In this document: piece after piece, positions 2,840 to 56,674 of the stretch | Layout: every line of letters starts with the position of its first letter | Numbering within the stretch: the first letter of the stretch is position 1 | Assembly (NCBI RefSeq): GCF_000373185.1 | Contig: NZ_KB890628.1 | Location: forward strand, 1-64,000 | DNA: 64,000 bases | Reading direction: 5' to 3' | Source: Segatella paludivivens DSM 17968 = JCM 13650 | Lineage (GTDB): Bacteria > Bacteroidota > Bacteroidia > Bacteroidales > Bacteroidaceae | The notes under the pieces: generated by a model | The model's input: the letters and a program-made list of their open reading frames with translations, nothing else | Told to the model about the DNA's origin: nothing | Database searches by the model: none | Made by a program: the position numbers and the translations under genes

Positions 2840-3425
2840 ATATTAACGCGTTGGCAATATTTGGACAACGGAAAATTGATGATTCTTAAAATAGAAGTTT
2901 TCCATATAGAAAAGGAAACTTTATATCGTAGGAATAGAAACTTTATATCGAAAGAACGGAAACTTTACGTCGAAGGAATGGAAACTTTATGTCGTAGAAA
3001 TGCAGACGTTTGATCGTAGAAATGAAATACAGGGTCTTTAAATGCTGTTTTTTACTACAGTAAAAATGGATTTTAAGTATAACGTATTTAGAAATCAGGG
3101 TATAAATTATAGTACTTACTTTATTTTTTTATTGATGATTTAAGTCATTTTTCCCCCTATAGTTTTTGAAAATAAATAGCGTCAAAGCGTCTAATGATTG
3201 TGTGTCAGTCTGTTAGAAAGTTTTTTGGGGTAGGAGAGGTGTATGTCAAGAGACACTATTTTATGCGTTTTATCGATGAAATGCAAAATCGGAATAATTT
3301 AGAGGTGATTTTATACTGTGCAAAAACATGTATTTTGGGTAGAAAATTGATGATTATGAAAGAAAAGCTGATTTTGTCGTTCAAAAAATAGATGAAACTT
3401 AACATGAAACATGATTTCATGTTAA
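2840..3425 (+). repeat. Noncoding repeat element, copy A, with 22-bp tandem array
   Basis: An intergenic element homologous along its length to the inverted copy at about 27130-27652. It opens with GTTGGC...ACGG and AATTGATGATTCTTAAAATA, then has six imperfect 22-bp units at 2893-3024 (type GAAACTTTATGTCGTAGAAA plus two bases), then about 360 bp with long conserved blocks, for example 25 of 25 bases at 3265-3289 and 17 of 17 at 3314-3330, and ends near AAATxGATG...TTAACAYGAAAC. A 65-codon frame at 3194-3391 is not kept in copy B, so I treat the element as noncoding. Confidence 0.8.
2893..3024 (+). repeat. Array of six 22-bp units (copy A)
   Basis: Units start at 2893, 2915, 2937, 2959, 2981 and 3003, each exactly 22 bp. 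The first is the most diverged. Units carry either a GAAACTTTA or an AGACGTTT core followed by a TCGTA or TCGAA block. There are no spacers between units. Confidence 0.85.
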
Positions 3426-27031: not shown

Positions 27032-27129
27032 GATAAATCCCATTTTGTTTTATACTTTTTTTACATAAATGCTGTCTTTTGTATAATTCTTGTAATATAA
27101 TGTTTATAGCAGTAATTTGGATATGCTTT

Positions 27130-27652
27130 ACCTTTAAAGCAAGTTTCGTGTTAAATGCCATCAATTTTTGAACAACAAAATCAGCATTTCTTTCATATTC
27201 ATCAATTTACTATGAAAAACGCATGTTTTTGCACAGTAAAAATCGCCTCTGAATCATATCCTATTTTGCATTTCATCGATAAAACGCCCAAAATACCGTC
27301 TTTTGGCTGACACCTTTTTAATAATAAAAGACTTTCTAATAGTCTGATAATCAATGATTAGACACATTGACGCTATGTTTTTTAAAAAACTACATGTAGG
27401 AAAGTACTTTAACAATCAATAAATGAAAACGGGTTAAGCATTATAGATAGTAGCTTAATTTTAAACGTTTGAAAGATTTTAATTTTCATTTCTACGATCA
27501 AACATTTTCATTTCTACGACATAAAGTTTCCATTCCTACGATCAAACGTTTGCGTTTCTACGACATAAAGTTTTCATTTCAACGATGTAAAGTTTCTATT
27601 TTAAGAATCATCAATTTCCCGTTATTCTATTTCCGCCAACACTTAATAATAA
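27130..27652 (-). repeat. Noncoding repeat element, copy B (inverted relative to copy A)
   Basis: Read on the minus strand it follows copy A from end to end: GTTGGC and ACGG blocks, AAATTGATGATTCTTAAAATA, a 22-bp array, then the conserved tail with 25 identical bases at 27263-27287 and 17 at 27222-27238, ending in TTAACACGAAAC. The stretch between the array and the tail is diverged or shorter than in copy A. It fills most of the gap between the HTCS gene and susC. Confidence 0.8.
27487..27596 (-). repeat. Array of five 22-bp units (copy B)
   Basis: Units start at 27487, 27509, 27531, 27553 and 27575, each exactly 22 bp. TCAAACRTTT and ATAAAGTTT versions alternate after a shared TCTACGA block. 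No spacers are present. Confidence 0.85.
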
Positions 27653-55325: not shown

Positions 55326-55620
55326 ACAAGTTATTAATAACTTACATTATTATATATATATCGCTTATTTCCGTTTTGGCTTAAAGATTTTCAATTTATA
55401 TGCTAAGTAATTTTCATGTATTTGTGTGCCAAATATCTTTTAGATGTTGAATAAAAATATAATTGTCATATTAATCTAATTTGCATAGTTGCTAGTCTCT
55501 TAATCTTTCTGCTACATAGGGTTTTCAAAAAAACTAGTGTCTAAATGTCTATTTACTGATAATCAGTATGTTAGATGGTGGATTTTAAAAATAACAGTGT
55601 CGCTATAATGTCAAAAAGCA

Positions 55621-55752
55621 AATGCGTTTCTATATAGAATTGAAAACGTTTCTACATAGAAACGGAAACTTTATGTCGTGAAAGTAAAAACGTTTCCACG
55701 TATAAACGTAAACTTTATATCGTATAAACGCAAACTTTGACCGTGAAAGTGA
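55621..55752 (+). repeat. Array of six 22-bp units (left arm)
   Basis: Units start at 55621, 55643, 55665, 55687, 55709 and 55731. AAACGTTT and AAACTTTA cores alternate for much of the array, as in copies A and B. Confidence 0.85.
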
Positions 55753-55898
55753 ATTCTGCGCTATAACTTCCTAATATATTTAGTTTTTATCTCAGAACAC
55801 AACTGTAAAATAATAGTAATTGTCAATAATCTTATTCTTGTAATCATATTGATAACCATTCGTTTACCTGCGCAAAGTAATATCGTTTTTCACGCTAG

Positions 55899-56034
55899 GC
55901 AATTCGATTACCTAACGTGTGTAATCGAGTTGTTCACGTTGTGTAACATGGTTACACACGTTGTGTAATCGAATTGCACACATGCTGATGTAATTGAATT
56001 ACACACATACCGATGTAATATAGTTACACAAAAG
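55899..56034. repeat. Dyad array inside the inverted-repeat element
   Basis: Six repeated dyads of form GTAAY-n3-RTTAC, for example GTAACATGGTTAC and GTAATTGAATTAC. They start at 55899, 55921, 55943, 55965, 55990 and 56015, so the period is 22 bp for the first three steps and 25 bp for the last two. Confidence 0.75.
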
Positions 56035-56340
56035 TTTTGTAAATTTATGTAATCGTTTGTGCACTCAGTTTCAATATATATTTGCATAATTACGAAAAAA
56101 ACGCCAAAAACCAGGTGTAATCTAGGGTTTAATGTCACTTTTACGCTGATAATGTCACTTAATGTCACTCGCTCAACCCTTATAAATAAAGGGTTTGTGA
56201 CATTATAACATTAGTGACATTAAAAAACTTTTTTATGTTTTGTCTTTAGCCGGAATAGGTTTATAGAGAATCCCCCCCTCTAAATTGACGAAGAAGCAGA
56301 ATTCAAAATCTCTCTATATATAGTTTTATGTAGTAAGAAT

Positions 56341-56472
56341 TCACTTTCATGGTCAAAGTTTACGTTTATACGATATAAAGTTTACGTTTATACGTGGAAA
56401 CGTTTTTACTTTCACGACATAAAGTTTCCGTTTCTATGTAGAAACGTTTTCAATTCTATATAGAAACGCATT
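56341..56472 (-). repeat. Array of six 22-bp units (right arm)
   Basis: Units start at 56341, 56363, 56385, 56407, 56429 and 56451, in inverse order to the left arm. Confidence 0.85.
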
Positions 56473-56674
56473 TGCTTTTTGACATTATGGCGACGCTGTA
56501 TTTTCAAAAAATTACCATCTAACATACTGATTATCAGCAAATAGACATTTAGACACTAGTTTTTTGAAAACCCTATGTAGCAAACAGGGTAATATACAAG
56601 AATAATTATAAATTACAAGTAAATTACTCTTATAATATACATTTTGCAACTTTAAGCGGCGGATAATAAGAATA

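Follow-up and report, generated by a model that had tools for sequence, protein, structure and literature searches.

A gene-less 1.07-kb element in Segatella paludivivens that appears to combine repeat modules of two element families linked to BT4734/VapE genes

The window, a 64,000-nucleotide stretch (positions 1 to 64,000 of contig NZ_KB890628.1 of Segatella paludivivens DSM 17968), carries at positions 55510 to 56582 an inverted-repeat element that we read, with a probability of about 0.48, as a gene-less composite of cis-acting modules from two element families that, where they bear a long gene, encode a BT4734-like_N + VapE (primase-helicase-like) protein; these would be origin-like modules that spread as gene-less copies. 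In the sample analyzed, 22-bp units like those in its arms accompany one gene family systematically. In the mechanism we propose, the 22-bp arrays would be iterons bound by the cognate BT4734/VapE protein, the inverted blocks of short repeats might serve as paired initiation sites or ends, and the gene-less copies would be propagated through copying in trans that creates no long target duplication. The second arm of the window element could then have arisen through an inverted duplication or a template switch. We infer that the primase-helicase may be the mover of the gene-less copies, and the action of a transposase or recombinase is a live rival for that role.

Anatomy of the window element

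Two inverted arms of 248 and 247 bp enclose a 578-bp core. The near-perfect pairing of the arms given in the original prediction was recovered both by a gap-free scan (238 nt at 94% identity) and by alignment (95.1%), and the six 22-bp units claimed for each arm were confirmed by counting on the printed sequence, where they lie head to tail, with a spacing of 22 in the gap-free scan. The left arm (55510 to 55757, + strand), defined by the inverted-repeat scan and alignment, is an array-bearing end of a repeat family designated family I; it follows the order of that family, with the terminal inverted repeat (TACATAGG...) at 55512 to 55572 (+) and then the array of six units at 55626 to 55757 (+; spacing and period 22). 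The right arm (56336 to 56582, - strand) is its inverted copy, with the units mirrored at 56336 to 56467. In the alignment, the array portions of the arms mismatch at two bases only, and the differences between the arms are concentrated near arm positions 70 to 95. Since each arm reaches at most 78% identity to the closest other copy compared, the two arms are mutual nearest relatives (tree support 0.842). Left-arm stretches of at least 150 nt matched at least 13 other places among the matches listed, and ~60-nt matches to the terminal repeat were found at many places. The element terminates in GCTACATAGGG...CCCTATGTAGC, and the ORF scan of 55510 to 56582 turned up no reading frame reaching 100 aa, as anticipated by the claim that no transposase lies inside.

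Two related 22-bp arrays were located elsewhere in the window by tandem-repeat and similarity evidence, copy A at 2899 to 3026 (+) and copy B at 27466 to 27630 (-). By eye, a family I-like repeat stands ~70-130 bp beyond the 22-bp array in both of them (2866 to 3300 and 27100 to 27610, respectively); their arrangement is unlike that of the 55510 to 56582 element. A CRISPR-like array was excluded because the 22-bp units run head to tail without spacers. An RNA element was also discarded, with no Rfam family in the window at its gathering score and three weak matches far below theirs (E up to 1).

The core derives from a second family, family II, whose terminal repeats of ~100-115 bp are rich in TGTCACT. 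Its first part (55758 to 56087, +) is family II interior with matches elsewhere, including a complete gene-less family II copy in locus L043. This part holds an array of its own at 55918 to 56030 (+), overlooked earlier, with a period of 22 to 25 (the tandem repeat finder reported periods 22 and 25, and a period scan gave 25 as best), and a similar array lies upstream of a 710-aa gene in locus L052. The second part (56084 to 56233, +) is one family II terminal repeat, composed of TGTCACT direct repeats, whose left partner is missing; in L052 this repeat is found on both sides of the gene. A single end, GCTTCTTCGTCAATTTAGAGGG, at 56276 to 56297 (-) belongs to a further repeat layer found around family II copies, shows two mismatches to the pattern from other family II copies, and by eye resembles an ISL3-type IS end. 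The core is a dispersed repeat, likewise overlooked earlier, and occurs in at least 25 other places (40 of 100 first-look candidates scored).

The arms thus represent a family I array end and the core part of family II, so the best reading of the window element is a chimera of two repeat families with a doubled arm, rather than one simple element. In this layout, a family II piece sits between two inverted family I array ends. The original prediction of a MITE-like, non-autonomous element holds as far as its gene-less and repetitive nature is concerned, but not as one clean insertion.

How the chimera was assembled admits a competing account, namely an accidental patchwork in which recombination joined a family II piece to two family I ends, the resulting 1.07-kb unit has never moved whole, and the product has no function. 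We regard this account as a serious contender, with a chance somewhat below even, and it may hold together with our best explanation of the parts. It fits the missing left end of family II, the single further end, and the uniqueness of the composite, which was present exactly once among the matches listed, with no other whole-unit copy there. However, outer ends that form a palindrome and arrays that are almost identical point to a single copying event or a recent conversion. Nested composites also recur: in three gene-less copies of genome G096 (L297, L298, and L301), with TTTAGGATT-like ends, an outer inverted repeat encloses an inner one that holds the 22-bp array.

BT4734/VapE genes and their upstream arrays

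Both repeat families also exist as gene-bearing copies in which inverted repeats flank the gene and a ~22-bp array immediately precedes it. In locus L061 (contig C38 of the same genome), a family I terminal repeat and array are followed by a 693-aa gene and then by the inverted terminal repeat, so that the repeat flanks the gene at either end. In L052, family II terminal repeats enclose a small DUF6078 gene, a 22-bp array, and the 710-aa gene. The 693-aa and 710-aa proteins both match PF08800 (BT4734-like_N), PF05272 (VapE-like), and PF12990, all above cut-offs. As expected if the window element is a gene-less derivative, array and inverted repeat are common to it and to the BT4734_N + VapE gene copies. 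A transposase beside the arms had been proposed for searching; the cognate gene found was instead a BT4734/VapE gene.

PF08800 matched seven times in the genome of the window, BT4734-like genes were present in 48 of 80 genomes of the genus (up to 14 per genome), and VapE homologues appeared in 407 records from phages and 96 from plasmids. A profile built from seven BT4734/VapE proteins matched the solved VapE-like chain 7pds. The block taken for primase motif I is non-canonical, being mostly E.N (E in 78 of 106) as opposed to D.D/E, and S.K in family I, which counts against an active primase. In addition, an RloB-like + AAA gene pair (PF13707, PF13304) adjoins the family I gene on C38 (L061:301-2293), and tandem repeats of ~171 bp surround several VapE genes (L061, L063, L060, and L081), some of them as LPQISQIYADKPQK-like ORFs.

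To survey the arrays, a profile from seven genes was used, which matched 113 of the 1109 ORFs in the examined loci; after exclusion of 8 duplicates, four ORFs whose upstream region was short, and one short ORF (a number obtained by subtraction), 100 upstream regions were left. These loci were picked by similarity to query genes, the named ones being mostly Prevotella or Prevotellaceae, and the counts describe the sampled relatives, not all members of the BT4734/VapE family. The best upstream period was 22 in 70 of the 100 BT4734/VapE genes and 21 in 12, compared with a best period of 22 in 18 of 102 downstream controls and in at most 7 of 185 upstreams of control ORFs (seven commonest periods tallied). 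Strong arrays, defined as 40 of 66 positions repeated, preceded 49 of the genes, 41 of these at period 22, and the other 51 upstreams were without one; the corresponding controls gave strong arrays in 10 of 102 downstream regions and 5 of 185 control-ORF upstreams (one at period 22). Inverted repeats across the gene, at 28 bits or more, were detected for 21 of 96 genes, leaving 75 without a detected flanking inverted repeat. The comparison sets gave 2 of 96 with partners permuted, 4 of 96 in direct orientation, and 5 among the first 150 control ORFs to qualify.

A direct-repeat array beside a primase/helicase gene is known from the iteron replicons of plasmids and phage satellites of the P4 and SaPI type. 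In contrast to those replicons, the present arrays are found as many gene-less arrays across the chromosome, between inverted repeats. The genes themselves belong to the same family as the BT4734-like archaeo-eukaryotic primases and VirE/VapE helicase domains treated in PMC5862659, which, in the part available, counts BT4734-like among the primase families, places VirE-domain helicases in mobile elements, and reports related primases with a mobile-element association. That part does not mention upstream 22-bp arrays or gene-less copies, and the term 'inverted repeat' is absent from its main text as available. PF08800 is listed among human-gut-specific families in the accessible part of PMC2880560. 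In the literature searched, including papers available in part, we found neither a tested role for BT4734-like genes nor a report linking BT4734/VapE genes to 22-bp arrays and gene-less copies. The link to a fixed 22-bp array architecture and gene-less chromosomal copies provides a testable function for BT4734-like genes, namely iteron binding and copying in trans.

Gene-less copies and described repeat elements

Gene-less copies that retain the array and the inverted repeats are dispersed in intergenic DNA of the window's genome, for family I as well as family II. A search for other copies of the arms had been suggested, and arms or core indeed recur at many places. For other genomes, the array regions of three genes, all chosen for clear arrays, were queried in their own genomes (G007, G096, and G097). 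The letters of these arrays are unrelated to those of families I and II, and each genome contained cognate gene-less copies. Matches were obtained at six further places in G007, of which five are 85-95% alike across almost the full query, with the array enclosed by inverted TATGACGTTT blocks; at seven further places in G096, six of which were fetched; and at three further places in G097 (74-80% alike). When the G007 query was run against seven other genomes, one weak match was found, in G020.

The fetched flanks in G007, G096, and G097 (at most 1.5 kb, and for G096 six places out of seven) showed a VapE match only at the query's own gene. In the window's genome, 1 of 50 fetched loci had a VapE match, the known L052, in a set drawn from copies away from contig ends and outside the family I loci already known to bear the gene; in the sister genome G040, the figure was 1 of 24, a fragment. 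Sharing of the arrays with primase-helicase-like genes hints at an unusual mobile DNA without an ordinary transposase, and the BT4734/VapE link could account for part of the Prevotella intergenic repeat DNA. Around the gene-less copies of L032 and L089-L097, we observed repeats of ~73 bp and an outer TAGCTACG layer; alternating CG-rich stretches were visible by eye close to the ends.

Families I and II and the copies in G007, G096, and G097 share the MITE traits of being short, gene-less, multi-copy, and bounded by terminal inverted repeats. Target-site duplication, which also characterizes MITEs, was not seen: a scan at the clean ends of the window element, where a duplication had been proposed, gave at most 2 bp, and in five G096 loci no direct repeat exceeded 3 bp across 12 end pairs, some of which combined an inner with an outer end. 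The nearest described element is BrickBuilt of Porphyromonas gingivalis, which, according to the part of PMC4596501 available, is likewise intergenic, gene-less, and multi-copy, with head-to-tail 23-nt repeats and small inverted ends, in the same order, Bacteroidales. In BrickBuilt, the ends match IS5-family elements, again as given in the available part of that paper, whereas IS5-like GAGACCTTTGCA ends were not found here, the ends of the window element being those given above. Further differences are that array and inverted repeats here belong to BT4734/VapE genes, the unit is 22 bp, its letters vary between genomes, and both arms of the window copy carry arrays. The main text on BrickBuilt contains neither the word primase nor the word VirE (PMC4596501).

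Occupied sites in relatives and candidate movers

The sister genome G040 contained 95 matches to the window element and gene-bearing copies of both families. Among 39 other relatives, one gave a match, of ~44 nt (up to 11 candidates scored per genome), and a further search in G016 found none. At the site of the window element, the corresponding intergenic region of G040 is occupied by a family II copy that lacks family I arms. Because the family II element there differs from the one in the window, G040 offers no empty site for comparison with the window copy, and a simple single insertion at the site was rejected on the same ground. The G040 copy also bears on whether the element is an invertible DNA switch, in which the 248-bp arms would flip the core and alter expression of the BlaI or FMN-binding neighbours. 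The long inverted arms lie between two genes and the family II core is oriented opposite to that in G040, as a switch would have it. However, the two cores are 78% alike and are thus probably different copies, and no recombinase gene was recognized beside the window element, so that we consider a switch very improbable.

When the flanks of seven family copies were searched in G040, one empty counterpart was found among the matches listed, that of L032, with 63 bp in G040 against a stretch 1176 bp longer in the window's genome. The extra 1176 bp comprises a family I copy and 73-bp repeats, and is thus more than the repeat element; the neighbours of the empty site are presumably dioxygenase-like and GNAT-like genes. 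The empty site expected in a relative was seen for this other family I copy; the element's own position is occupied in G040 by another element. Among the matches listed, two more copies had a G040 site matched on both sides, occupied by the same element (L092) or by a longer family I arrangement (L031); the flanks of the other four were not matched on both sides. The L133/L035 site holds different elements in the two sister genomes (among the matches listed).

These sites are relevant to the proposal that the copies are dispersed regulatory or origin sites, whose arrays bind the VapE protein or a phage relative (as satellite origins or titrating decoys) and which spread mainly by recombination. 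Intergenic placement, iteron-like periodicity, and the VapE homologues in phage and plasmid records are in line with this proposal, but the differences between the two sister genomes at orthologous sites and the sharp ends of the G096 copies between unrelated flanks are not, and we judge it improbable. A separate observation concerns the region downstream of alaS, where L148 of G040 has a 683-aa thioredoxin-like gene flanked by two family I arms, and L070 of the window's genome has one family I arm, with two copies of this gene further on.

In G040, family I units lie within ~15-kb clusters and share several kb beyond the inverted repeats, so the terminal repeats may not be true ends; the interpretation as a plain 2.4-kb TIR transposon was weakened because the shared sequence continues past the terminal repeat. 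Pfam scanning of one cluster (L261) identified a tyrosine recombinase (PF00589), DUF3575, DUF3868, a FimA-like protein, a peptidase M15, and a Toprim/DnaB-like protein. The PF00589 product is a possible conventional mover, and for this reason the probability of our best explanation was lowered from 0.50 to 0.48 and that of a conventional mechanism was raised slightly. Under the latter, an ISL3- or IS5-type transposase or the cluster tyrosine recombinase would recognize the outer ends and the 22-bp arrays would be passengers, which we think unlikely but worth weighing seriously.

The insertion sequences of the window's genome speak partly for such a conventional mover. Besides a complete ISL3 transposase there are nine short matches, of which seven lie no more than 30 bases from a contig end, the pattern that a multi-copy IS would leave (L278-L285). 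Ends that look ISL3-like by eye accompany family II copies, one of them within the window element, and BrickBuilt combines 23-nt repeats with IS5-like ends in a MITE of P. gingivalis (PMC4596501, available part). Against this, the ISL3-like end pattern (up to 4 mismatches) was found in 1 of 8 ISL3 loci, ~770 bases from the transposase match and not at an IS end. The window element has one such end only, internal, without a partner and not at the outer ends; its likeness to an ISL3-family IS is thus confined to this core end and to an ISL3 transposase in the same genome. Moreover, Pfam scans of selected ORFs near family I copies revealed no transposase, and the gene-less copies in G007, G096, and G097 have letters in common with the VapE-gene flank.

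If the primase-helicase does the moving, as in our preferred reading, this would be a new kind of transposition. A broader version would comprise widespread transposase-free Bacteroidales elements, in which a primase-helicase uses 22-bp iterons and inverted ends, copies without target duplication, and supports gene-less satellites, the window element being one with arrays at both ends; we hold this generalization to be doubtful, at roughly one chance in several. In the G040 clusters (L261-L264), the family I VapE genes terminate the ~15-kb units, where a small four-cysteine ORF is also present, and an HU-like gene (PF18291) lies just past the VapE gene at L262:18119-18589.
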